A stretch of 49,144 nucleotides of DNA, taken from a virus. Position numbers and translations under genes: made by a program. Under the pieces are notes generated by a model. The model did not search any database. It saw only the letters and a list, made by a program, of their open reading frames with translations, and was not told the DNA's origin. Of the stretch, positions 13,900 to 49,144 are shown piece after piece. The stretch lies in the IMG/VR virus record IMGVR_UViG_3300038696_000455, positions 1 through 49,144 of that record. The stretch is one strand, 5' to 3'. How positions within the stretch are numbered: position 1 is the stretch's first letter; each line of letters opens with the position of its first letter.

Positions 13900-14029
13900 T
13901 ACTGGGCCCGATACTGGGCCCGATACTGGGCCCGATACTGGGCCCGATACTGGGCCTGACACCGGGCCTGACACCGGGCCTGACACCGGGCCTGACACCG
14001 GGCCTGACACCCGGCCTGACACCCGGCCG
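13898..14029. repeat. Eleven tandem 12-bp units
   Basis: The array has eleven head-to-tail 12-bp units starting at the last bases of the protease stop: five GATACTGGGCCY, then four GACACCGGGCCT, then two GACACCCGGCCY. The first four contain the palindrome GGGCCC. The unit is a multiple of three, so frames through it read as (TGPD)n on the plus strand. The graded variants suggest successive slippage duplication. It lies outside recognised coding sequence, between the scaffold gene and a terminator. Confidence 0.95.
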
Positions 14030-14075
14030 CTGTCTCACGCCACTGTCAACGTCTTCAATCTGTTCACAGCCCTGA

Positions 14076-14117
14076 CCCCTGCTGAAGGCCTCGGCAGGGG
14101 CGTTTTCTTGCATTTTT
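14076..14117 (+). terminator. Terminator between scaffold and decoration genes
   Basis: CCCCTGC (14076-14082) and GCAGGGG (14094-14100) form a 7-bp stem with an 11-base loop, followed by CGTTTTCTTGCATTTTT. It sits 18 bases before the gpD start. As an intrinsic terminator or attenuator it could adjust capsid gene expression relative to protease/scaffold, or be read through by a phage antiterminator. Confidence 0.6.
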
Positions 14118-14134
14118 GAAACAGGACCCCCGCC

Positions 14135-35166: not shown

Positions 35167-36378
35167 TTATCCCTGATCATTCCGGACATAGGTTACATAG
35201 AAATTCTTCAGCATCCGATGCTCCTGCATCCGGTCCCCAAGCGAAAACCCATCCGTCTTAATCGGGGGCTGGAAAATGTCCAAGCCTCGGTCCAGCACGA
35301 TTTTCCAGCCTGTATCCGTTACAATATCGCGCGCATGCGCCGTACCAGACGTGTCAAACGCCCAGCTGAACTCGACCCCGGTGCCGGTACAGGCCGTGGT
35401 TATAGATTCAAGCAATTCACGCTGTCGGGAGATGTTGCCTTCGTCGGGTCCGGTCACCAGATGGACCTTGACCTGATCCTCGGGTGGCTTGCGACGGATC
35501 ACCATCTCGATGAATTCCATCATATTCCGGTTCTGGTAGAAGATGCGGATATAGGGATCCGTCACGATAATGCGGCTGGCCCCATCGATGTAAGGGCCAA
35601 AAAGCTTGTCATAGCTCACGCCTTTACGGTTTTCGGCGAAGACATGATGGCCTTCGGAGACCTCGACCGCAGGTTCATCCCTAGACGCAATTTGAACAGT
35701 CGATTTCACCGCTTGAGCGGCGTCTTCAGACGGCGCTTGCGAGCTGGGCCGAGCATCACCAGCCGTCGACTGATCCTTGGGGTCAAGCGCGGGCTTGAGG
35801 TTATAGAACTGCGGGTATTCCTCTTCCTCCACCGTGGTCACGCGCCGCTTGGCACTGTCTGAACCGACGTAATGGAAATCAACCTCTGGGTATGTGCTGT
35901 CGATGCGCGCCAGCTGGTCCTTGACCCGCTTGCGGCTTTCCATGGCAAGGCGCAGCAGTTCCTCGACTTCAGCTTCGGTTTGACTGCCATCGGGAAAGAT
36001 CAGCTTCAGCAGACCTGACATCGTTTTGTAAATTGCATCCCGATCTCGAGTCGAAATCTTCTCGCTGACCTGAAAGAACTGGTCTGGCCGGTTCGAGAAG
36101 TCTTCTGATCGCAAATGACGCAGGATCTCGGCCAGGTAGTCGACAATGAAGCCATACCCCTTGGTGAACATCTCACCGCGAATGACGTCGATCTCCCAGC
36201 CAGGCAGATAGGCGTGCAGCCGGTCGATGAAGGCGGAATCGTGAAACTGGCTTGGCAGCGCCTCGAAGAGATCGCTGTTCTTCAACATGAAGGGCACATT
36301 GTGGTCGGTATTGCCCACGAACGAGAAGCTGGCCTCCGCGCCCATTTGAATCGCCCCGAGTTTGTCGGAGACCATCAA
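35167..36378 (-). pseudogene. brxL: brxL 3' part, 5'-truncated by the IS element
   Basis: The native part begins at 36346, directly at the IS edge, with MGAEASFSFVGNTDHN and continues LHAYLPGWEIDVIRG, which is the middle of BrxL, the BREX Lon-like AAA+ protein. The ATPase P-loop and earlier N-terminal parts are gone. The C-terminal half retains a MIT_C/phospholipase-D-like domain (VSYDKLFGPYIDGASRIIVTD, RGLDIFQPP). The open frame of 403 residues begins inside the IS (ATG at 36378), so 10 residues come from the IS end. Full-length BrxL is usually about 680 residues. The remnant is likely inactive. The product could still be made from a promoter at the IS end. Confidence 0.88.
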
Positions 36379-36389
36379 CTTAAGTAAGG

Positions 36390-36731
36390 ATGATGGTTAT
36401 GACAAAAAGCAAAATGGCAAATCGCTACTCGCCAGAGGTCCGCGCACGTGCGGTCCGGATGGTGTTTGAACATCAAGGTTCATACGAAACGCAGGCGGGC
36501 GCGATTGCGGCCATTGCACCAAAGATAGGCTGTATTCCCCAAACCCTGCGCGAATGGGTCAAGCAGGCCGAGAAAGACAGCGGTATGCGCGACGGTGTCA
36601 CGACCGAGGAACGGGACCGGATCAAGGCTCTGGAACGAGAGGTTCGAGAACTGCGCCAGGCGAATGAGATCCTGCGCAAAGCGTCAGCATATTTTGCGCA
36701 GGCGGAACTCGACCGCCCACTGAAGCGATGA
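36390..36731 (+). CDS. IS3-family transposase OrfA
   Basis: This 113-residue protein carries an N-terminal helix-turn-helix ([20 protein letters not shown]) followed by a leucine-zipper-like helix ([20 protein letters not shown]). It binds the inverted ends and pairs with OrfB. The start may be ATG 36390 or 36399; the latter is eight bases after AAGGA. A T TTT tract near the end (about 36690) is a possible -1 slip site producing the OrfAB fusion, since OrfB is in the -1 frame and open upstream of its ATG. Confidence 0.93.
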
Positions 36732-37633
36732 TCGCCTTTATTGAAGATCAGCGCGTTGTCTACGGCGTCGAGTCGATCTGCAGAGTTCTGCCGATCGCGC
36801 CGTCGACATATTACCACCGCCTGGCATGCCTCGCTGATCCGTCCAAAGCTTCGGCGCGGCATCAGCGTGACCGAGAGCTTTGCCCGGAGATCCAACGGGT
36901 CTGGGATGAGAATTACCAGGTCTACGGGGTCCGCAAGGCGTGGCATCAGCTAAAGCGGGAAGGCTATACGCTGGCGCGCTGCACGGTGGAGCGACTGATG
37001 AAACAGATCGGCATCCGTGGTGCCGTGCGTGGCAAGGTGATCAAAACAACGGTTCCTGACACGTCAGCGCCCTGTCCGCGTGACAAGGTGAACCGCGTGT
37101 TCCGGGCGCCTGCACCGAACCTGCTCTGGGTCAGCGATTTTACCTATGTGTCCACGTGGCAGGGCTTCATCTATGTGGCTTTTGTCATCGACACATTCGC
37201 TGATCGCATCGTCGGATGGCGAGTCTCACGATCGGCCAAAACTGACTTTGTTCTCGATGCTCTTGAACAGGCCCTGCATGATCGACGGCCGGTCCAAAAG
37301 AGCGGATTGGTTCATCATTCGGATCGCGGCGGGCAATATTTGTCCATTCGTTACACCGAGCGTTTGGCCGAAGCAGGCATCGAACCATCGGTCGGCAGCG
37401 TCGGGGACTCGTATGATAACGCCCTGGCTGAGACGATTAACGGTCTCTACAAAACCGAGCTGGTCCATCGCCAAGGACCGTGGCGCAACATGCAGGATCT
37501 GGAACTGGCCACCCTCGGCTGGGTCGATTGGTTCAACAACCGGCGCCTGCTTGGACCCATCGGAAACATCCCGCCAGCAGAGGCCGAAGAGAACTTCTAT
37601 GCACAGCGCGACGTGCTCGATATGGTCGCATGA
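36728..37633 (+). CDS. IS3-family transposase OrfB (DDE integrase)
   Basis: This 301-residue protein is the catalytic subunit. The N-terminal part has the HTH_21-like region ([20 protein letters not shown]). The rve core has D137 in WVSDFTYV, D199 in HHSDRGGQY and E235 in NALAETING. The 35-residue D-E spacing is diagnostic. It overlaps orfA by four bases. It appears intact, so the element may still be mobile. Confidence 0.95.
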
Positions 37634-37669
37634 AGTGAAGCTATAGGTCTCCGGTAAACCCGGGGCGAT

Positions 37670-40474
37670 TCAGTACCAGGTCGCAGGCTTGCCGATCATG
37701 GCAACGATCTGATCGCGAAAGGGCTCAAGTGCTGCGAGGAACGGATACTTTAACTTTTCGATGACACGCTGGTTCAACTCATCCGCGAGCTTGCGAATGC
37801 TGTCTGCCCATTCGGCCCCCAGAACCCGTGCATCCGACCCGTCGGCAGGCAGGCCGAACAGCTCTTTGTACATGTCCTTCGCGGCCTTCATTTGCGACGC
37901 GGTGAACTCCAGTTGTGGGGTCAGAAGCACATTACCAAGCATATGGCTGTTGTTCAGGGCCCGCGCCAGATCGGCGCCTTCCAGAGAGGTGCCATCCGAG
38001 CGTGCCTCGCATTTGCCCTTTCCAGACAGGCTGGCCGCAAGGCAAAGCGTCGCAACTGTGGGCCAACCATAGGGCTTCGCACCAAAGCGCTCGGTCAAGT
38101 ATTTGGCCGATACTTTTACTCCGGTACGCGCCTGACCCTGAACGTGGTGCAGAACATCCTGTTCAGCTTCGGTCAGCCCAGTCCCGGTGTTTCCAAAAAG
38201 GCCCCCTGTCGGGCTGGCAGCTTTGGCAATGTCGGCCTCGACATAGTTCACGCCGCGCAACATCGTCAGGTTGACGTAAACCTTGTCAACGAGCGCCTGA
38301 AACGCCTTCACAACACGGTCCTGGGGCTCATCACCTCCGATGTCCAACTCGTCACCGCGCACGAAGAGGCGCGCAGAGGCCATCAGCTTGCGAAGCCTCA
38401 GTTCAAGGTCTTTCGCGCGACGTCCATTCTGCTCGCCCTTTTCAAGAATGATCCGGTCACGGCCGGGCTGTGGCGAGCCACTGCGGGATTGTCGGATGAA
38501 CTTGTCGGTTTGGCGAAAGAGCGTCAGATCCCGAATAAATCGGACATCGGGCTGCAGCACGATGGCCAGTTCTTCGCGCCCCATGTTGCGCATGCGAATA
38601 GCCTCGGGGGCTGCGGCATCGTCATTGAAGGGGCTGATGATGTTGATCGAGAGCTCATATTCCCGGCCCAGCAGGTGATCGTCGAGCTTGCGGCTGAAAG
38701 CGTATTCATAGCCCGTCGCCAGATGCTTGACCTTACGGTGTCGAAGGATCGTGTCGAAAGCGAGGGTTTCTAACTCTTTACTGATCTCTGTCGGATCGAC
38801 ATCAAGCGCTTTGATCTCGGCTTCGACGTCCTTCTCTTCATTGGTCAGGAATTCATAAACCTCGCCATTGCGCTGGATATAGGTGTTGCGCTCAAGAACG
38901 CCCAGAGCCTCCTCAATCTTGCGGCGCTGGCCCACTTGATCGGCTTCGAACTCAGAGAGCAGCAAAATGCTGATGTTGCGAACCGACGGTTTGAATTCCT
39001 TGACGTATTTGACAAGGAACAAGGCTTTGAGAACCCGAACAGCGAACGGATCATCAAGGTTCTTTTCAGCGATCTGGATCGACTGCTGAACAGCAGATTT
39101 CAGCGCTGTACGGATCCCCTCGAACATCAGATCAAAGGTTGCAAGTCCCCCAACCGGGCAATCTGCAAGGGCCTTGGCTACCTCCTGGAATACGCCCAGC
39201 ATCGAGCGTTCCCCGACTGAGCTGTGCTTGCCCTCAAAGGCATTGTGCTGCGAGAGTGATGTGATCGCCATCTGGAACAGCGTGTACTGATAGGGTGGGA
39301 ATGGGTAGCTCGCGATGAAATGCTTGCGGTCCCTGTAGTTCTTCAAGCGGATCGAACCATCCGAAAAGTCAAACAATGTCTTGAGGTTGTTCTCTTCCTT
39401 ATCATGCAGATTGCCCAACATGATCTGGGCTGTATCGCTCTTGAACAAAAGACGGCGCTGGATCACCTCTGCCACATCGGCGGAGTTCAGGGGCATGCGG
39501 TTACTGAACCTGGCCTGTATTTTGGAGAAGTCGTTTTCCTGCTGGCTTGTCATATCACCCACCACTTCAGTGATCGCCTGCTGCGCCGTCACGATGATCC
39601 AGGCCTGGCCCTTGCACTTCGTGTTCAGGCTTTCAGCAATGGTCTGAAGGTTGGTCATAAGCTTGATGTTGTCAGCGATGTATTGGCCGACCTCATCCAC
39701 GAAGAAGTTCAGGCGAAAATTTGGAACCTGACGGTCGATCCACGCTTTGACCGTATTGGCGAAGTCCTCGATCGAAACCCGCGTATCCTTTCGGTACTGC
39801 GCAAGAATATCCTTGGCATCAGCAGCATCCGTGCCTGTTGCCTTTGCAAAAGCTGCAGCGATACTGCGCCCCTCGAGCAGAGCCTCTTCCCGACCGCGCG
39901 TCTCCCAGGGTTTACCGGAAACCTCCTGAAACGCTGACTTGAAGGCTTCGAACTGGTTTCTTTCGTCCAGTTGACGCTCAAACTGTGCGATATGGGGCTG
40001 CTTGCCATAATAGCCGCACATCTCGTCAAATACCTTCTGAAACACCGCCAGAAGAGCATCGACGTCAGTTTTCGAGATCACATCGGCCTTCTGGTCGATG
40101 TTAAACAGGATCGACTTTGATGGGATCGACACGGCCTTGCGCAAAGCGCCGGCAAGCATCGGCTCATCCTTCAGCTTTTCGGCAAATATGTCGAAGGCCT
40201 TCACCCCTTCGACTTCGCGGTTTTCCAAAAGCAGGGCCAGCATCTTCAAAAGATGCGATTTGCCTGAGCCAAAGAACCCAGAAATCCAGACGCCGTTCGC
40301 AGTCTCGTAATTGTTATAAGCATCAAGGAACTGCTCAAGCCGCTGCCCGATTTCGCCGGTGATGACATATTCGTCGAGTTCAACCCGGAGGCTCGCTTCA
40401 TCATCAGCCTTGATGACGCCATCAATAGCGCGGTCGACGGGCTTTTCAAAAATATCACGCATTGAAATCGTCAT
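37670..40474 (-). pseudogene. brxC: brxC, 3'-truncated BREX P-loop protein
   Basis: This frame of 934 residues starts MTISMRDIFEKPVDRAIDGV, the BrxC N-terminus. It has Walker A GFFGSGKS at residues 66-73 and a Walker B-like FFVDEVGQY around 260. Intact type I BrxC proteins are about 1200 residues, so the C-terminal fifth is missing. The stop codon is the terminal TGA of the IS, i.e. the last codons read AC TGG TAC then TGA at 37672-37670. The loss of the 3' end together with the pglX/pglZ position makes BREX non-functional here. The remaining ATPase domain could still be expressed from the brxR promoter. Confidence 0.93.
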
Positions 40475-40478
40475 TGTA

Positions 40479-41081
40479 TCAAACCTCGTAGTTCAGGATG
40501 TTGAAGGCCCGGTAATACTTGTCGTCATGCAGGCGCCCAAAGAGATCGAGCGAGGCCCCTGTTGCAAGCGCATGGGTGTAACTGCCCGGGAAAAACAGAA
40601 CTGTCGGCTTGTCTTTTGCTGTACTTTGCAGATTGTTCAGCACGCTGTGCGACCGGATGTAGGGATAGACCTCGCCTACACCCGATAAAAAGATGACGTC
40701 GTGTGGCGTTGCCTCAATGGCTTCCCCGATCCTCGGGATCAGATTGGCTTTGGGGTCCAGCACCGACTGCAGCAGCTCGCGGATTTCACTCTTGTCTGTG
40801 TCGCGTTCGATCTCGAGGATCTGATCCAGAATGCCCCGCTCCTCGAGAATGCCGAGAGACAGGTCGTACAGACTGAGGTCCAGCACCGTTGTCCCTGCAT
40901 GGGTAATCCGCGTCACCAGATCCAGCCGATCCTCATTCATCGACAGCCCCTCTTCCGCCGGATAGGGGCATATAAAAAATGGCACCTCATTGCCGAGGCC
41001 TTGCTTGGTCAGAAACCGCTGGCTGGTAACCACCTTGAAGAGATGTTCTGAACGCTCTCTGCGGCTGGTAGGTTTGTTCAC
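40479..41081 (-). CDS. brxB: BrxB (DUF1788)
   Basis: This 200-residue protein is complete. DUF1788 features are present: RSEHLFKVVTSQRFLTKQGL, then VPFFICPYP and DVIFLSGVGEVYPYIRSHSV, ending PTVLFFPGSYT. BrxB is a conserved BREX core component of unclear activity. It starts with GTG at 41081, overlapping the brxA stop. The next gene, brxC, follows four bases after its stop. With no pglX and pglZ in the window it cannot serve a complete system. Confidence 0.95.
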   Translation of the reverse strand: MNKPTSRRERSEHLFKVVTSQRFLTKQGLGNEVPFFICPYPAEEGLSMNEDRLDLVTRITHAGTTVLDLSLYDLSLGILEERGILDQILEIERDTDKSEIRELLQSVLDPKANLIPRIGEAIEATPHDVIFLSGVGEVYPYIRSHSVLNNLQSTAKDKPTVLFFPGSYTHALATGASLDLFGRLHDDKYYRAFNILNYEV

Positions 41082-41698
41082 GAAGCACCTCCATCATGGG
41101 CAAGCCCCGGAAACAGCACGAGGTCTGCAGGGCACTCCTGCTCGAGCATTGCCCTGAGCCGAGAAGAAACGATGGCAGACTGAATCCTGCGGTTGTCCGA
41201 AATGATACGTGCCTCACGCATCATCCGAAACAAAACTTGCCGAAGTTTTGCGCGGGTTGAGGGGCTGATGCTCGCCAGTCCATCAACCCACTCCGCTTTG
41301 GCGGCAAAGAGGATGTCAAAGCTCTCCAATGGCAGATCGAGCTGAAACGAAAGATAACGCTCGCGCAAGACATCAGTCGCAAATTCACGGACGAAACGAT
41401 ACGCACGGCAGGTGGCGAGCCAAAGCAAGGCGAGTTGATCGCCGCGATCAGCCTCGGTGAGAAGGTAGTCGCGCTCCATATCAGTGAGCGTCGAAAGACG
41501 ATTCACGATTTCGCGCAGGGTGCGGCGCTGCGATGCCGCTTTGGGCAGCGAGGTTGCCCCCTTGGCAAGCGCACGGCTGATTGTTACCGACCATGGCTCG
41601 CCTGCTACGTGCAGCCGCGCGACCGCCAGCGTTTCGTTCAGGAAGAGACCGCCTGTCGAGAACGACATCTTGTAGTGTGACGGATCGGCGCGCGTCAT
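41078..41698 (-). CDS. brxA: BrxA (DUF1819)
   Basis: This 206-residue protein matches BrxA in size, operon position and motifs: MSFSTGGLFLNETLAVARLH, then RTLREIVNRLSTLTDMERDY and LLWLATCRAYRFVREFA. BrxA is a small DNA-binding helical protein of the BREX core. It is overlapped at both ends by brxR and brxB (ATGA type), so the three are co-translated. Confidence 0.95.
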   Translation of the reverse strand: MTRADPSHYKMSFSTGGLFLNETLAVARLHVAGEPWSVTISRALAKGATSLPKAASQRRTLREIVNRLSTLTDMERDYLLTEADRGDQLALLWLATCRAYRFVREFATDVLRERYLSFQLDLPLESFDILFAAKAEWVDGLASISPSTRAKLRQVLFRMMREARIISDNRRIQSAIVSSRLRAMLEQECPADLVLFPGLAHDGGAS

Positions 41699-42570
41699 AC
41701 AGAAGACACCGTGGGTTGGCGTGCGAGCACTTCAGGGTTCAAAAGCACAATTTGCTGATCCTGAGGTCGCCGCGCAGCCGGATCCGTGTCGAGACCGAGG
41801 CGTTTTAATGCATAGAACAGAAGTGCACGGCGCAACGGAATCTGAGCCCGACCATTTTCCATGCCGTAGTCCATCTCGATGGCGCGACGCTGCGTCGGCG
41901 AGAGGTCTGGATGCGGCCCAATCTCGAGCACCACTTCGCTGTGCCAATCTTTGTCGCTTTGCTGGTCGGCCGTGACCGGTGCCCGCTTGCCAATTTCGAC
42001 AATCCGCGAGAGCAGGAAATCCTTGAACACCTGATCGTTCTGACAAAAGGCGCGCGCATGCCAGCGAAAGCCGTCAAAGGCCAGCGCATGCGGCTCGATC
42101 CAGCGCGCGCTGGGCTCTGGCCGTGACATCGACTGGTAGGTCACTTGCAGGGCTGCGGGTTCATGGATTGCGGCCAACACGTCGCGCAGGGTCTCGGGCG
42201 CAACACCGCGTGCAGGGGTTGGCGTCGCGCCATAACCCGGAAACACGCTGATCCAGCTCTGCTCGCGTGAGACCAGACCCTGATCGACGGCACGCAACTG
42301 GGCGAAATAATCCTCGGCGCTGGGCGTGATGAAATGTGGAGTGAAGTTTTTGCCGCGGACATAGGCACGCTGGCTCTTGTCATAGACGAGGTTGCGCTTC
42401 CATTGGTCGGAATAGCCGCTCAGATCGAGCGAGGCCTGCTGAAGCGAGATACCGAACGTTTCCATAAGGTCAGAGCGGTTGATCCGTCCATGCCAAAACA
42501 CCCGAAACTCGATGAACGCGTTGCGCCGCTTCGCGCCCCAGTTCAGCTGTTTGACGTGTTTGTGCGGCAC
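41695..42570 (-). CDS. brxR: BrxR-type WYL regulator
   Basis: This 291-residue protein has an N-terminal winged helix (RNAFIEFRVFWHGRINRSDL), then a WYL domain (ALQVTYQSM, WIEPHALAFDGFRWHARAFC) and a C-terminal dimerisation region (HSEVVLEIGPHPDLSPTQRR). BrxR/CapW-type regulators are autorepressors placed upstream of BREX and other defence operons. They bind inverted repeats at the promoter and may respond to phage infection through the WYL domain. The gene is intact. A perfect palindrome in its promoter is the probable operator. Confidence 0.92.
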   Translation of the reverse strand: MPHKHVKQLNWGAKRRNAFIEFRVFWHGRINRSDLMETFGISLQQASLDLSGYSDQWKRNLVYDKSQRAYVRGKNFTPHFITPSAEDYFAQLRAVDQGLVSREQSWISVFPGYGATPTPARGVAPETLRDVLAAIHEPAALQVTYQSMSRPEPSARWIEPHALAFDGFRWHARAFCQNDQVFKDFLLSRIVEIGKRAPVTADQQSDKDWHSEVVLEIGPHPDLSPTQRRAIEMDYGMENGRAQIPLRRALLFYALKRLGLDTDPAARRPQDQQIVLLNPEVLARQPTVSSV

Positions 42571-42597
42571 ACACTTACCTTCCGATCACTCTTCGCA

Positions 42598-42627
42598 AGT
42601 ATAGGACTAATAATTAGTCCCACGCAA
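42598..42627 (-). promoter_or_regulatory. brxR promoter with palindromic operator in the spacer
   Basis: On the minus strand a -10 box TATACT (42603-42598) lies immediately after the palindrome GGACTAATTATTAGTCC (42620-42604, two perfect 8-base arms around one base). A -35-like TTGCGT follows upstream with an 18-base spacing. Repressor bound here would cover the whole spacer. The start codon of brxR is 27 bases further downstream of the -10 box. Confidence 0.75.
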
Positions 42628-43038
42628 TAAAATGATTCAATCTGAGGAACAGTCGATGGCCGCTAGCATTCCCCACCCGACGAAAGATCCCCACTGACGG
42701 CTTCAAGCCAGAGCAGCCCCGCTGACAGGCAGCAGCACGGGTTGGCAATGCAGGTGCAGTGGAACACACCCGGCCCTTTGCAGCCGTTGGCCACGACGTC
42801 TCAATGCTGCAGTCGCAGCCCGCATTGCTGCCATTCGCTGCATCCGCAAAATAGGGGGATGGTCGAACTTGCAGTTTGCGGTGAAACCAGAAAGCTCGGT
42901 TTCCCGCGATGTGCTTGGTCTCGGCATGGGCTCGGGCACCGTATGCGTGCAACTCACGACGACAATCCAGTATGTCAGAGTTTCTAGGCCAGGTACCGCT
43001 TTTTGGTGGCAGCGATGGGTCCAGAGCCTGTCCGTCTC
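42628..43038. other. Intergenic region between brxR and the stress protein
   Basis: No gene could be supported here. Several short frames exist on both strands but none has a ribosome-binding site or a recognisable family. Sequence resembling a degraded coding stretch is possible at 42700-42950. Confidence 0.5.
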
Positions 43039-43473
43039 CTACTTCACAGTCAGAAACGCACAGGGGGCATCATGCGCGATTTTCTGCGACGTGCTGCCCA
43101 TCAAAAGGCTTTGAATGCCGCCTACGCCACGTCTGCCGGTGACAATCAGATCAGAACCTGTTTCCTCTGCGGCGGCGATTGCCTCTGCTGAAGGGGTGCC
43201 GTTGCGCACGGTCTGACTTGCAGGTTCTAAACCTGCTTCGCGCACCGTAGTTGCGGCCTCAGCCATGACCGCGCGACCGGCCTCAGCGATGGCCTCGTCC
43301 GTCGGTGGAATTTCAACCGCACCGGACCCGACGGCAAGGCCGGTTGTTGCGATTTCTGGCGTGTGAACCAGATGGATCTGGCCATCGTAGTGCTGCGCGA
43401 GATCGCAAGCGACCTTCAACGCTTTTGTGGCATGGTCCGATCCATCTACGGCGACGATAATATTCTTGAACAT
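43039..43473 (-). CDS. Universal stress protein UspA family
   Basis: This 144-residue protein starts MFKNIIVAVDGSDHATKALK. It has the ATP-binding G-2x-G-9x-G-S motif in TGRRGVGGIQSLLMGSTSQK, so it likely binds ATP. Start at 43473 has AGGAAGGA seven bases upstream; the longer frame from 43542 has none. It is a housekeeping-type cytosolic stress protein and looks like ordinary host DNA separating BREX from the right-hand island. Confidence 0.95.
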   Translation of the reverse strand: MFKNIIVAVDGSDHATKALKVACDLAQHYDGQIHLVHTPEIATTGLAVGSGAVEIPPTDEAIAEAGRAVMAEAATTVREAGLEPASQTVRNGTPSAEAIAAAEETGSDLIVTGRRGVGGIQSLLMGSTSQKIAHDAPCAFLTVK

Positions 43474-44061
43474 AATACAATCCTTCCTGTGAGTCGTAAG
43501 GAGTGTAGATGCTTCAGACATAAGTACCTTGATCCAAGTCAATAGCCAATGTTTTAGGTTTTGAGCTGGAAGGCGGGTAAACCTTGCATTGCCGAGAACC
43601 GCGCCCGGTCATCAATCAGAATTGCTTTTTATCGTACGGGAAACAGGTTGCGGAAGGGCGAGGCAATGCGGCGAGGTAGGTTGATGGACCTTGTAGCCGT
43701 TCAGAATGCTGACCTCAAACAACATCGGCCCAAAGCCGACATCTGACCCTTAATCTCGATGCCGCGCTCGCGACCCGCTTTCCTGCCATTCGCTGCGAAA
43801 GCACTACCTCAATCGCAGAAAATTCGTATTTCGCGGGGTATGGGGTATAGTGGGCAATCTGGCCAGCTCTCGCATCCGGCCCTCTAGACACTGCAGTGAT
43901 AGTCAACCATTGTCGAGCTATGTCGATGCCATGTTCATTCGTCTGGATATCTCAGACAAAGGATGTATCATTTTTCTAACAACGATACATAGAACCTGGA
44001 ACAATCTGGTACACAAGACACACCGGTTGTTTTCGAGTCAAAAACCTACAGGCATGTCAAA
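43474..44061. other. Intergenic region with inverted repeat upstream of the right-hand island
   Basis: No gene is supported in these 588 bases. Composition falls toward AT near 43900-44060. An inverted repeat ATGTATC (43963-43969) and GATACAT (43984-43990) with a 14-base spacer lies 72 bases before the next start and may be an operator. Confidence 0.5.
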
Positions 44062-45267
44062 ATGATAGATTTCCGAAACGCTGAGTTGCTGCACGATACT
44101 AGGGTCAATTGCGCGTCGTTTATGACGTCAATGACCGTGCAAGAATACATAGGATTGGTTAACGATGCTTACAAAGAACGCGGTGGTATTGCTGGGCAGC
44201 GGGAGCCGCTGAAAACAACCAGTGCTAAGCGTATTCGGAAGCGAATGGTGGAGGATCTTCTCGCCGGTGCAGTCCTTCCACCTGTGGTCATTGGTAAGGT
44301 GGTTGATGACCTAGCTAGCCTTGATACCACAGATGCGTTGAAGACCGCGATTTCTGATGAGGATAAAGGCGAACTTTCAATCATTGATGGGATGCAACGT
44401 ACTACGGCTCTTTTAGAAGCATTCGCTGAGTCTGAAGAAGTGATCAAAGACCGCTTCTTGCGGGTGGAGTTTTGGGTTGCAGAGGAGACCGAGAGCTTAA
44501 TCTATAGAATGTTGGTGCTAAACACAGGCCAGGTTCCCTGGAATCTTAGCAGGCAGCTGCAGGTCGTGTACGCGCCGTTGGTTGCCGAGATGAAGGAAAA
44601 AATCAATTTTGATCGCGTATTAGAAATTCAGGGCCCTAATCCTGAGAGGCGCACTAAAGCAGGTCAGTACAGGCCTGATGATCTCGCAGAGTTGTTTATT
44701 GCATTTGGATTGCGCAAGACTGATGTTGATACCAAGGAAACATTAGCGGATGAATTCTCGCGCCTGGATATGGCGGAAGCGCTTTCTTCTCATCTCTACA
44801 AAGAGTTTTTCTACCCGACAGTTCAATTGATGGTCGATCTTGATGGAGCTATTTCTCGCCTTGATGATCAGTTAATTCAGCCCAACGGGGATGACGAAGC
44901 AGATGGAAAAAAATTAGTTGGAAGAAATGTCTTTGATAGTAAGCCTGCCCGCATTGGGTTCGTCGTGGCCGTCGCCATTGCAGTAATGGGGCGAATTGGA
45001 ATGGAGAAAGACAAGGATCAGCATGCTATGGAGCAGCGTATTGCAGCCATCAAGGATGGGTTGGCGCAGCTAACAGACAAACTCGGCAAAATGGATGCTG
45101 ACGGCATGAACGATTTCCTCAAGTTAGGTGTCCTTCAACAACGACTTTACGGAACAAAGCGCTCCGCGGTTGGACGATATGAACGCGCCTTCTTTGAAGA
45201 TGCGTTCAAAATTTTGATCGAAGAAAGCTTTGACATACCTACGTTGGAGACGTGCTGGCGCGGGTAA
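44062..45267 (+). CDS. DGQHR/ParB-like protein of an unknown two-gene unit
   Basis: This 401-residue protein has a central motif SIIDGMQRTTALLEA (DGMQR at 109-113). It is preceded by RMVEDLLAGAVLPPVVIGKV and followed by LVLNTGQVPWNLSRQLQVVY. This combination resembles DGQHR-domain (DndB-like) and ParB/Srx or DUF262-like proteins, in which the DGQxR motif binds a nucleotide. The family is not certain. Codon use is less GC-rich than in the prophage. The next gene begins directly after its stop with no gap. Together they look like a defence or regulatory pair. Confidence 0.65.
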   Translation: MIDFRNAELLHDTRVNCASFMTSMTVQEYIGLVNDAYKERGGIAGQREPLKTTSAKRIRKRMVEDLLAGAVLPPVVIGKVVDDLASLDTTDALKTAISDEDKGELSIIDGMQRTTALLEAFAESEEVIKDRFLRVEFWVAEETESLIYRMLVLNTGQVPWNLSRQLQVVYAPLVAEMKEKINFDRVLEIQGPNPERRTKAGQYRPDDLAELFIAFGLRKTDVDTKETLADEFSRLDMAEALSSHLYKEFFYPTVQLMVDLDGAISRLDDQLIQPNGDDEADGKKLVGRNVFDSKPARIGFVVAVAIAVMGRIGMEKDKDQHAMEQRIAAIKDGLAQLTDKLGKMDADGMNDFLKLGVLQQRLYGTKRSAVGRYERAFFEDAFKILIEESFDIPTLETCWRG

Positions 45268-46335
45268 ATGGCAAACCGGAATAGAGTGCAAATGTCCAAT
45301 GACCTGTTTGCGAAGCTGGTGCATGCCGTGGAAGCCTCGCCGGATCGAGTGCTTTCCAATAGTGACGGATCACGGTGGATAAAAAGGCTATCAGAAGAAG
45401 ACGCCGTCCTAATGTCTCAGGCAGACGTTATGGAGGCTTGTCTTGTAACACGTCATCTAAGGGCCTTTTTGATAGAGCATGAAGGAAAAAGGTTCTTAGG
45501 CGTTTCAGGGCTGGACGCCGATGATGATTTGCCTGACGGGTTTGAAGCACATGAACTCACACCTGCTTTTCTTGCGTTAGCTGTTTCTGAATTGAATCTG
45601 GTTCCAACAGCAAGTCCGATTGAGATTTTTGACAACATTGATAGCAGCTTTTTAGGTGAAGACGGCTACGAAGGTCACGAGCTCGAAGATGTCGCAAAGC
45701 TCTTCCCTGATGTGTCTATCTTTAAGCTGAACGAGGATGCAGATTCATCTAGATCAATTTGGAGGTCCATGGGCGTACTTCTTTCGGCATTCTATGGGCA
45801 AGGTCCGATTGAATTGAGCGAAGAGGCACTTAAAAGTCTAAAGGAACTCTATGAGGCGGGGTCAAATCATGTCCCATTTAGAATCATTGTGCAGGGCCAA
45901 CTAGCCATGACCTGGAGTGGCTTGTTTTTGGAATTGTACAGAGCCATTGAACAATTGTACTCAGTGCCAAAGTTAACCAACCTGACTGATGAGTGGGCTT
46001 CTCCGAAACCATTCTATGAGCTTGCCGAACTGTTAGAGAACCAACTGGGGTGGCGCCCAAAAGAGGAAGATGCACTGCGAGAGCTTATCGAGAGCTGCGG
46101 AGGCTCACTTCTTGATATGCTGACCAGCGAGCTTTGCCCAAATGCCGAAAACAAAGCCAAAGCCGTAGCTAAGGCGATTTATAAGAAAAGAAATTCGTTG
46201 GTTCATTTTCGTTCAGCTATGCCAGAACAGGATTATTCTACCGAACAATGGAACAACAGAATCTACCTGATGATTAAACTCGTATCTAAATTATACGAGA
46301 GGCATGGTGAAAACTACATGTTATCCCGCGCATGA
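45268..46335 (+). CDS. Unknown protein with C-terminal HEPN-like motif
   Basis: This 355-residue protein is translationally coupled to the DGQHR-like gene (TAA then ATG). The N-terminal ~200 residues have no recognised domain. The C-terminal part carries LFLELYRAIEQLYSVPKL and then KKRNSLVHFRS. R308-N-S-L-V-H313 is the R-x4-H signature of HEPN ribonucleases, and the preceding tyrosine-rich helix fits the HEPN fold. HEPN enzymes are common toxins in abortive-infection systems. The function is inferred from the motif only. Confidence 0.6.
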   Translation: MANRNRVQMSNDLFAKLVHAVEASPDRVLSNSDGSRWIKRLSEEDAVLMSQADVMEACLVTRHLRAFLIEHEGKRFLGVSGLDADDDLPDGFEAHELTPAFLALAVSELNLVPTASPIEIFDNIDSSFLGEDGYEGHELEDVAKLFPDVSIFKLNEDADSSRSIWRSMGVLLSAFYGQGPIELSEEALKSLKELYEAGSNHVPFRIIVQGQLAMTWSGLFLELYRAIEQLYSVPKLTNLTDEWASPKPFYELAELLENQLGWRPKEEDALRELIESCGGSLLDMLTSELCPNAENKAKAVAKAIYKKRNSLVHFRSAMPEQDYSTEQWNNRIYLMIKLVSKLYERHGENYMLSRA

Positions 46336-46414
46336 TGAGCTCCCGATGCTGGGTTTAGGTAAGTTGCGGCATGTGATAGGAACATAGAGTGAACGCCTAT
46401 GCTGCATCTGGCGT

Positions 46415-46434
46415 GCTGCACAATATCTTGCAGC
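46415..46434. promoter_or_regulatory. Inverted repeat upstream of the C5 methyltransferase
   Basis: GCTGCA (46415-46420) and TGCAGC (46429-46434) form a 6-bp dyad with an 8-base AT-rich spacer, 45 bases before the GTG start. It may be an autoregulatory site for the methyltransferase or simply a short hairpin. Confidence 0.35.
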
Positions 46435-46478
46435 GATTCAGGGTGTGTGGTCTAAGTCAACGAAGTAATGGAGCAGTT

Positions 46479-47678
46479 GTGAGAACTTTTTTCGAATTTT
46501 TTGCGGGTGGTGGCATGGTCCGGGCTGGTCTAGGTTCTGGCTGGTCCTGCCGTTTTGCAAATGACTTCGATGCCAACAAAGGTGAAGCATACCGCGACAA
46601 CTGGGGTGACGGTGAGATGGTTGTCGATGACATCCGCAACCTGAGCCCAGATGATATGGTCGGCACACCCGATCTCGCCTGGGGTTCTTTTCCTTGTCAG
46701 GATCTCTCTCTGGCAGGCGGTGGCGCTGGCCTCAAAGGCGATCGTAGCGGAACGTTCTATCCGTTCATCTCGATCATGAAAGAGCTGCAAGACCGCAACC
46801 GAGCACCATCCATCATCGCGCTGGAAAACGTCGTCGGCACGCTGACGTCCCACAAGGGTAAAGATTTCCAGGCGATCTGTGATGCGCTGGATGAGCTTGG
46901 GTATCGATATGGCGCGCTAGTGGCCGACGCATCTCTCTTTGTTCCACAGAGTCGCCCTCGGTTGTTCGTGATTGCAGTGAAGTCTGGCGTCAAATTGCCT
47001 GATGGTATCACCGGTGATGGACCTGAGCAGCCCTGGCACACGGCCGCTCTGCGCCGCGCGATGACCAATCTTTCTGATGATCAGCGGGATAACTGGATCT
47101 GGTGGTCTATGCCTGAGCCCAGTGAGCGCGAGACGGACTTCTGCGATCTCATCGAAGACGAGCCGAAGAGCGTCAACTGGCACACCGCATCCGAGACTAC
47201 AGCACTTCTGTCCATGATGAGTGAAGTCAATCTTGCGAAGGTTGAGACCGCCAAAGCTGCGAAAAAGAAAATGGTGGGCGCGATCTATAAGCGCACACGT
47301 TGGGAGCACGGTATCAAAGTGCAGCGCGCCGAGATCCGTTTCGATGACATCGCAGGATGCCTGCGCACACCTGCCGGCGGTTCTTCGCGCCAGCTGATCA
47401 TGACTATTCATGGTAGCAAGATCCGGTCACGCTTGATCTCAACACGTGAGACAGCGCGCCTAATGGGGCTGCCCGACACTTACAAGCTGCCCAAGAAGTA
47501 CAACCAAGCATATCATTTAACTGGAGACGGGGTCGCGGTGCCTGTAGTGCGGCACATCGCAGAGAGTATCTTCGAGCCGATCGTCAAATTAAATATGGAA
47601 GTGGATTTGATGGATGGCGGGCGCGACTCCTTGCGAGAACAATGCAGCACTGAAAGCGCGGGTGGCCGCTCTCGCTGA
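46479..47678 (+). CDS. C5-cytosine DNA methyltransferase
   Basis: This protein has 399 residues from GTG 46479 (GGAG five bases upstream; an earlier ATG at 46389 adds an unlikely extension). Motif I is FFEFFAGGGMVRAGLG, motif IV is PCQD with catalytic Cys73, motif VI is ENV with Glu116, and motif VIII is QSRPRLFVIAV. All C5 motifs are in order, so it should methylate a specific cytosine. The target recognition region (about 200-300) is of moderate length. The downstream gene overlaps by 65 bases, as in many type II restriction-modification pairs. Confidence 0.95.
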   Translation: MRTFFEFFAGGGMVRAGLGSGWSCRFANDFDANKGEAYRDNWGDGEMVVDDIRNLSPDDMVGTPDLAWGSFPCQDLSLAGGGAGLKGDRSGTFYPFISIMKELQDRNRAPSIIALENVVGTLTSHKGKDFQAICDALDELGYRYGALVADASLFVPQSRPRLFVIAVKSGVKLPDGITGDGPEQPWHTAALRRAMTNLSDDQRDNWIWWSMPEPSERETDFCDLIEDEPKSVNWHTASETTALLSMMSEVNLAKVETAKAAKKKMVGAIYKRTRWEHGIKVQRAEIRFDDIAGCLRTPAGGSSRQLIMTIHGSKIRSRLISTRETARLMGLPDTYKLPKKYNQAYHLTGDGVAVPVVRHIAESIFEPIVKLNMEVDLMDGGRDSLREQCSTESAGGRSR

Positions 47679-48474
47679 AGTCCTCAAGACTGAGGCGCAC
47701 ACTCTCGGTGATCACGGTCTTGATGATCAGGAATTCTACAACTCAGGTCTATTTCGGGGTGCCATAGAACAGATCCGAGGAGAATTCGTCGCATCGATGA
47801 CGCCGAAACGTGAGTATGTGTCACATGTTCTCAATCATATGGTCGACGAAGGCTTCATTCAAGATTGGCTGTCGGCGGGCGCTGCAAACCGTCACGATTA
47901 TTCGGTTACTCTGAATGATGGTAGGACGGCGGCCATCGAATTGAAGGGCTGTCTGGACGGCAACAACACGAACATTTTCACTCGGCCGCCACACGCTGAT
48001 GAATTCATCATCTGGTCAGTTTGCACAAATCCATCTGCGGATCCTGCCAAGAACGTCTGGTCGGGGATACACACGCGGCTGAGTGCTGAAATGATTGACC
48101 GTGATCAGCGAATAGACGGGCTTGTAGTGTGGGATTTTGTCTGTGGGACTGTGGGGCGGCCATGCCCGAAGCTTGTCGAAGCTCCAGAGCGGCTAATTGA
48201 GCTGGGGCCGTATCGTCTTCCGCCGCCATGCGTCTACATGTTCCCTTCATCCGTCCCAGCGCCACGGAACAACGCAGCGCCTCAGCCGCAGCGAGTTGGA
48301 AGTGTCGGGATACTTAATGCGATGCACCGTTGCTTTGGTGGGCGTGATGAAGAAGTTCACAGCGTCTTCTTTGAGGCGCGGTATGATGGGGCTGACCTGC
48401 AACGCAAGACCCGCATCGAACGCAACGGGGCGCTGATGCGAGAGTCTGGGTTTACATCAATCAAGCGGGATTGA
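47614..48474 (+). CDS. Probable type II restriction endonuclease
   Basis: This 286-residue protein is translationally coupled to the C5 methyltransferase. No family is recognised by name. It shows NRHDYSVTLNDGRTAAIELK, i.e. D95 or D102 followed by E109-x-K111, the PD-(D/E)xK active-site pattern, in the right secondary-structure context. Gene pairing and motif make it the most likely partner nuclease. The start ATG 47614 lies inside the methyltransferase 3' end and has a GGAAGTGGA stretch upstream. Confidence 0.65.
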   Translation: MAGATPCENNAALKARVAALAEVLKTEAHTLGDHGLDDQEFYNSGLFRGAIEQIRGEFVASMTPKREYVSHVLNHMVDEGFIQDWLSAGAANRHDYSVTLNDGRTAAIELKGCLDGNNTNIFTRPPHADEFIIWSVCTNPSADPAKNVWSGIHTRLSAEMIDRDQRIDGLVVWDFVCGTVGRPCPKLVEAPERLIELGPYRLPPPCVYMFPSSVPAPRNNAAPQPQRVGSVGILNAMHRCFGGRDEEVHSVFFEARYDGADLQRKTRIERNGALMRESGFTSIKRD

Positions 48475-49144
48475 TCAGCCTGCTTCGTCGAAAATTTTTG
48501 AACACCCGCGATCCTGCCGTCCTTTCTTCAGATCAGTGCGCCATCGAACCTGAAGCAAACGTCCGCTTCTCACATGGTTGCTCGTGATTTTGCCCTCGCA
48601 GCGAATGACCGGAATCCGCCCATTCTGTGGAAAAACACCGTGCTGCATCTGCAAATTTTCGAGAATTGGAAAGTTGTTCTCTGATACTCCGGTTTGGCTA
48701 AGGGACCCCGGGAAAATTTGAAGACCTCGGGAAATTGTTCTGCAAAATTTGACGTCAACGCGCTGAATCGGAGTTTTTCAACGGAATACGCCCTCCACGT
48801 CGGTCATGCTGTGACTGCGAGCAAAATCTGAGTAACCAAATTGAAAGCCAAGAAGGTCCCGCAAAGCTGCCCGTCGCGAACCCTTCGCCTAGCCCGCTGG
48901 AACCTTTTGTTAAGTGGATAACACTAGCTTGCTATATTATCAAAACCTTGCAGGTAAGCTGCGATCTCGGCGACCAGTGTCTGATCCAGCCCGTTTTTAC
49001 CTCGTATTTCATCAAGGGCCCTCCGTGCCAATAAGAGTGAGACATTTGACTGTCTGAAGTTTACACTTGAGGGCGAAGGAGACCGAACCCATGGTAATGC
49101 CTTCACAGATGCCGCTTTCACCGGATGCCGGATCTGAGATTTCG
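48475..49144. other. Right-hand intergenic end of the window
   Basis: These 670 bases hold no convincing gene. A 65-codon minus-strand frame at 48924-49121 has a helical look but no supporting context. Composition stays lower in GC, matching the island to its left. Confidence 0.45.

Follow-up and report, generated by a model that had tools for sequence, protein, structure and literature searches.

A palindrome filling the -35/-10 spacer as the probable autorepression operator of a BrxR/CapW-family regulator ahead of a broken BREX operon

Our data suggest that a 17-bp palindrome, GGACTAATTATTAGTCC, found upstream of a WYL-domain regulator gene in a 49,144-nucleotide viral DNA (IMG/VR record IMGVR_UViG_3300038696_000455; hereafter the window), is very probably an autoregulatory operator of the BrxR/CapW type, by far the best reading of this element. 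We put the probability that it serves for autorepression of the adjacent WYL/winged helix-turn-helix (HTH) regulator at roughly 0.86, because its symmetric core is conserved, the element is unique before the regulator, and the DNA-contact residues of the regulator are retained. Comparison with related loci further suggests that regulator and promoter-operator together make up a single conserved cassette, behind which the defense genes vary between relatives. In the window, these defense genes have been wrecked through an IS-associated deletion.

The two arms of the palindrome match at all eight positions around a lone central T at 42612. On the minus strand, positions 42627 to 42598 read TTGCGT-G-GGACTAATTATTAGTCC-TATACT, with the palindrome taking up 17 of the 18 spacer bases between the two hexamers, abutting TATACT, and ending 33 bp before the GTG of the 291-residue regulator; the first-pass annotation had described these perfect 8-base arms against TATACT at 42598-42627, exactly as the sequence has them. 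It had also named TTGCGT and TATACT as the -35 and -10 boxes. Both are poor matches to sigma-70 hexamers, and a consensus scan of the palindrome region called no sigma-70 promoter, so we base the assignment, which we retain, on conservation in relatives. From these boxes, the transcript is predicted to start about 21 nt 5' of the GTG. A second TTGCG is present in the window, inside TATACTTGCG.

Table 1. Positions of the promoter elements, the regulator, the BREX remnants and neighboring genes in the window.
Feature	Position	Strand	Basis or remark
brxL remnant	35167..36346	minus	residues ~303 to end (~400 residues)
ISDsh1-like IS3-family element	36347..37672	plus	ends TGAATCGCCCC/GGGGCGATTCA; flanks ATT / GTA, no target duplication
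brxC remnant	37670..40474	minus	934 of ~1173 codons; IS end supplies the stop codon
brxB, intact	40479..41081	minus	4-bp overlap with brxA
brxA, intact	41078..41698	minus	4-bp overlap with the brxR stop
Intact WYL regulator of 291 aa (brxR by position)	41695..42570	minus	Pfam WYL and structure matches; R32, S42, Q45, S47 present
Shine-Dalgarno-like GGAAGG	42578..42583	minus	sequence; 7 nt 5' of the GTG start
Putative -10 hexamer TATACT	42598..42603	minus	conservation; spacing 16-18 bp in relatives
17-bp palindrome, proposed operator	42604..42620	minus	two 8-bp arms, 1-bp center; sequence and shuffles
Symmetric core ACTA-N5-TAGT	42606..42618 (half-sites 42618-42615 and 42609-42606)	minus	alignment of relatives; spacer of 5 bp, matching published BrxR sites
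Putative -35 hexamer TTGCGT	42622..42627	minus	conservation (aligned relatives: TTGCGA)
Strongly conserved GAATCATTTTA, candidate UP-like element or second contact site	42628..42638	minus	abuts the -35 upstream
Universal stress protein	43039-43542		within ~6.3-kb block
DzbA/B-like genes	44062-46335		within ~6.3-kb block
C5 methylase	46389-47678		within ~6.3-kb block
Type II restriction enzyme	47614-48474		within ~6.3-kb block
sbcB end, at window edge	48927-49121		48927-49028 aligned

The regulator scores above the Pfam cut-off for WYL and combines this domain with an N-terminal winged HTH in about 290 residues, and the inverted repeat sits at the promoter of its own defense operon. Near full-length matches to solved structures place it closest to Stenotrophomonas maltophilia (Sm) CapW (E = 9.6e-64) and more weakly to Acinetobacter BrxR (E = 1.9e-50), with a more distant match (E = 3.5e-31) to the WYL structure 7QFZ, which we take to be the BrxR protein of pEFER. 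Residues R32, S42, Q45 and S47 (Sm CapW numbering) are invariant in our regulator alignment A1 and occupy identical positions in the window protein; in CapW of S. maltophilia C11, mutating these residues abolishes DNA binding (PMC9122588; PDB 7TB6). The regulator thus appears to be a member of the CapW/BrxR family of WYL defense regulators. The earlier name brxR derives from local context only, as the nearest relatives of the protein head defense operons other than BREX1.

We compared the promoter with those of two clades of related regulators, one of nine proteins at 84-93% identity identified by genome scan (L024, L044, L027, L028, L026, L041, L029, L025, L035) and one at 75-81% identity identified by genome scan and other scans (L014, L030-L034, L036-L040, L003). 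The first clade has a common promoter block, GAATCATTTTATTGCGA, with small variants in L044 and L029, followed in most members by GGG-ACTA-N5-TAGT and then by a TATA-like -10 located 16-18 bp from TTGCGA; in L029, CCC replaces GGG and ACTAATTATTAGT is retained. Among eight aligned relatives (the window's own pairing was read directly from its sequence), symmetric pairing was found at offset 3 in 8/8, at offsets 4 and 5 in 7/8 each, at offset 6 in 6/8, at offset 7 in 0/8 and at offset 8 in 4/8, and the other axes that we tried in the promoter block gave best scores below that of the palindrome axis. Because the right arm drifts and position 7 is unpaired in all of these relatives, the perfect symmetry of the window palindrome is partly accidental. 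Perfect 8-bp symmetry is peculiar to the window copy, and the conserved core is ACTA-N5-TAGT.

Members of the second clade carry TCTA-N5-TAGA in a promoter that cannot be aligned with that of the first, with one arm altered in some members. The core common to both clades is thus CTA-N5-TAG at equal spacing, and the two differ at position 6 of each arm. The palindrome is not shared by Paracoccus sediminicola, whose intact BREX operon has an 81% identical regulator and a different promoter. The search before other homologues that the first-pass annotation had suggested accordingly recovers the core, as ACTA-N5-TAGT or TCTA-N5-TAGA, and not the full perfect palindrome. Of 40 homologue promoters retained after dereplication, 19 have inverted 4-mers separated by 5 bp at 28-60 bp before the start, compared with 5.1 in shuffles that ignore kinship. 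The promoters of more distant homologues (57-62% identity; L004-L009, L015-L020) have other striking inverted repeats in the same place, for example TAACTAGGCATGCCTAGTTA and GCGCATAGTTTCAATGCGC.

A block upstream of the palindrome, GAATCATTTTATTGCG, is nearly invariant in nine sequences and no less strictly conserved than the palindrome itself. This conserved upstream block could be the real target of the regulator, or that of a second protein. If the regulator bound the promoter through GAATCATTTTATTGCG, the palindrome would be a by-product, a reading favored by the drift of its right arm beside a near-invariant block. We nevertheless consider this unlikely, given that the second regulator clade lacks the GAATCATTTTATTGCG block and yet keeps CTA-N5-TAG, that N5 inverted repeats are enriched family-wide, and that the characterized BrxR and CapW proteins bind palindromes (PMC9122588, PMC9122589, PMC9122601).

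When the 150-bp region before brxR was dinucleotide-shuffled, perfect arms of 8 bp or longer appeared in 36 of 4000 shuffles (0.9%) if gaps up to 8 were allowed, and in 9 of 4000 if the gap was limited to 1. Over the whole window, palindromes were not enriched (7 observed, 9-17 in shuffles), so it is position rather than occurrence that carries the signal. These window-wide counts are what one would expect if the palindrome were due to chance; this reading, or one that makes it an RNA terminator or attenuator stem, is very unlikely, as the symmetric core is conserved at a fixed place and the palindrome region has neither a T-run nor a terminator call nor a match in Rfam. Least probable of all is a site for a MerR-type activator, whose dimer would twist a promoter with an overlong spacer into an active form: MerR proteins also use sites between -35 and -10, but the spacer here is 16-18 bp and variable among relatives rather than fixed at 19-20 bp, and the protein is a WYL/winged HTH protein of a family whose characterized members BrxR and CapW repress.

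The distribution of the element in genomes also points to an autorepression operator. At zero mismatches, the full element occurs exactly once per genome, before the regulator, in 8/8 relative genomes. When 393 genomes of the order were scanned blindly with the pattern, one match came up besides the center genome, located before an 84% identical regulator. Hits with one or two mismatches, which might have indicated a wider regulon, were few in the relatives' genomes and not clearly above a reversed-pattern control. The 49-kb record itself, in line with a search proposed in the first-pass annotation, holds no other copy of GGACTAATTATTAGTCC at up to three mismatches besides its own complement, and so no further operator of this sequence, for instance an R-BOX2 ahead of brxA. 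The original proposal of an operator for the WYL regulator is well supported by the symmetric core, this uniqueness and the contact residues; its emphasis on perfect 8-bp symmetry does not extend to the relatives.

Published sites resemble the window element in kind and differ in placement. The BrxR operator of Acinetobacter sp. NEB394 is ATACCGTAAA-AATAA-TTTACTGTAT, with a 5-bp spacer (PMC9122589; PDB 7T8K/7T8L). As in the window, a WYL regulator stands first in a type I BREX operon with 5-bp-spaced half-sites at its own promoter, and the deduced 5' leader of the window transcript is similar in length to the 23 bp measured in Acinetobacter from transcript start to start codon (PMC9122589). 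The Acinetobacter half-sites differ in sequence and overlap the -35, whereas the window site lies between the -35 and -10. The sites of CapW, palindromes of 19-24 bp, overlap the -10 (PMC9122588); CapW shares with the window regulator its four contact residues and a palindrome at a defense-operon promoter, but controls CBASS, whereas the window regulator heads a BREX remnant. In Escherichia fergusonii pEFER, R-BOX1 is an inverted repeat with a 5-bp spacer before brxR (PMC9122601), located downstream of the -10, unlike the window site.

By analogy with these characterized relatives, we infer binding, repression and induction as follows. A regulator dimer would most likely occupy ACTA and TAGT, the half-sites of the core, within the -35/-10 spacer, and would thereby keep RNA polymerase off the promoter. 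The repressed promoter would serve the regulator itself together with the coupled brxA, brxB and truncated brxC, and repression would be lifted by some signal or ligand at the WYL domain.

The genes behind this promoter, in the order regulator-brxA-brxB-brxC, join by 4-bp overlaps or a 4-bp gap. The first-pass annotation called the controlled system broken, and the type I BREX set is indeed incomplete: brxA and brxB are whole, brxC is open to residue 934 and then runs into the IS element, pglX and pglZ are absent, and beyond the IS only the C-terminal part of brxL is found, without its first ~302 residues. Compared with the intact operon of P. sediminicola (L014), ~7.6 kb are deleted, the gap running from codon ~937 of brxC to codon ~302 of brxL, and both remnants are open frames collinear with that operon. 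The IS shares ~90% identity with copies of the ISDsh1 type carried by Rhodobacterales plasmids; a related copy in L112 is flanked by a 3-bp duplication, TTT, and the window copy by ATT and GTA. We infer that the break arose either by insertion followed by IS-adjacent deletion or by recombination between two IS copies. It looks recent, as every remnant frame is still open. For the same reason, the survival of regulator and operator, which the first-pass annotation had singled out, is not special: all undeleted genes persist alike, brxA, brxB and the still-open brxC and brxL remnants among them, and leave no proof of selection on either. In a viral contig (L002:1-1200), an intact brxR precedes a brxA fragment fused to the C-terminal part of brxL, which may be a second BREX deletion sparing the regulator, or an assembly artifact.

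The closest regulators, those of the first clade, head different defense operons, none of them BREX1. Their payloads include DruE/DpdE-like helicases (L024, L044, L026; also found in L113), an MmeI-type enzyme (L025), ResIII and NYN proteins (L028), BrxF/BREX3 (L041) and an SNF2 helicase (L029); BrxR homologues have been reported with diverse defense systems before (PMC9122601). In the regulator tree, the window protein pairs with L024 (support 96/91) within a ten-member clade (100/99) that spans six payload types. The median local score between promoters was 33.5 for regulator pairs at least 83% identical with different payloads; for pairs below 80% identity, it was 11 when the payload was shared and 10 when it was not. 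Promoter similarity tracks the regulator, not the payload.

In the nine clade relatives and in L113, sbcB (exonuclease I) directly precedes the regulator with a gap of ~95-110 bp. In the window, the end of sbcB is separated from the brxR promoter by an insert of ~6.3 kb encoding restriction-modification, DzbA/B-like and universal stress proteins. The locus behind sbcB in L024, L025, L026, L028, L029, L041, L044 and L113 looks like a defense hotspot in which the regulator is fixed. Several contigs in this set come from metagenome bins or have odd species labels (L024, L026), and their host names are unreliable. We tentatively propose, at somewhat less than even odds, that this locus is a Rhodobacterales sbcB "socket" in which the orthologous WYL repressor and its promoter-operator stay fixed while the defense operon is exchanged, so that newcomers would at once come under the same switch. 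The exchanged payloads would be BREX1, BREX3, Druantia/Dpd-like helicases, MmeI-type restriction, ResIII with NYN, and the SNF2 helicase. In Roseovarius autotrophicus (L027:1430-9430), a prophage whose DNA is 77-85% identical to the prophage at ~21-31 kb of the window lies on the far side of the sbcB-linked regulator, and we found no defense operon in between. Within the prophage region of the window, reading frames at 13900-14120 contain a GPDTGPDT repeat encoded by a short tandem DNA repeat.

The consensus ACTA-N5-TAGT or TCTA-N5-TAGA, with its natural variants, would describe a part of the BrxR/CapW family beyond the characterized examples. As the sequence of the operator goes with the regulator rather than with the defense system behind it, these loci may offer a route to studying how acquired, potentially toxic defense genes are controlled. 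The operator itself would be a known type of on/off switch; the more interesting part is the apparent cassette with exchangeable payloads behind sbcB.
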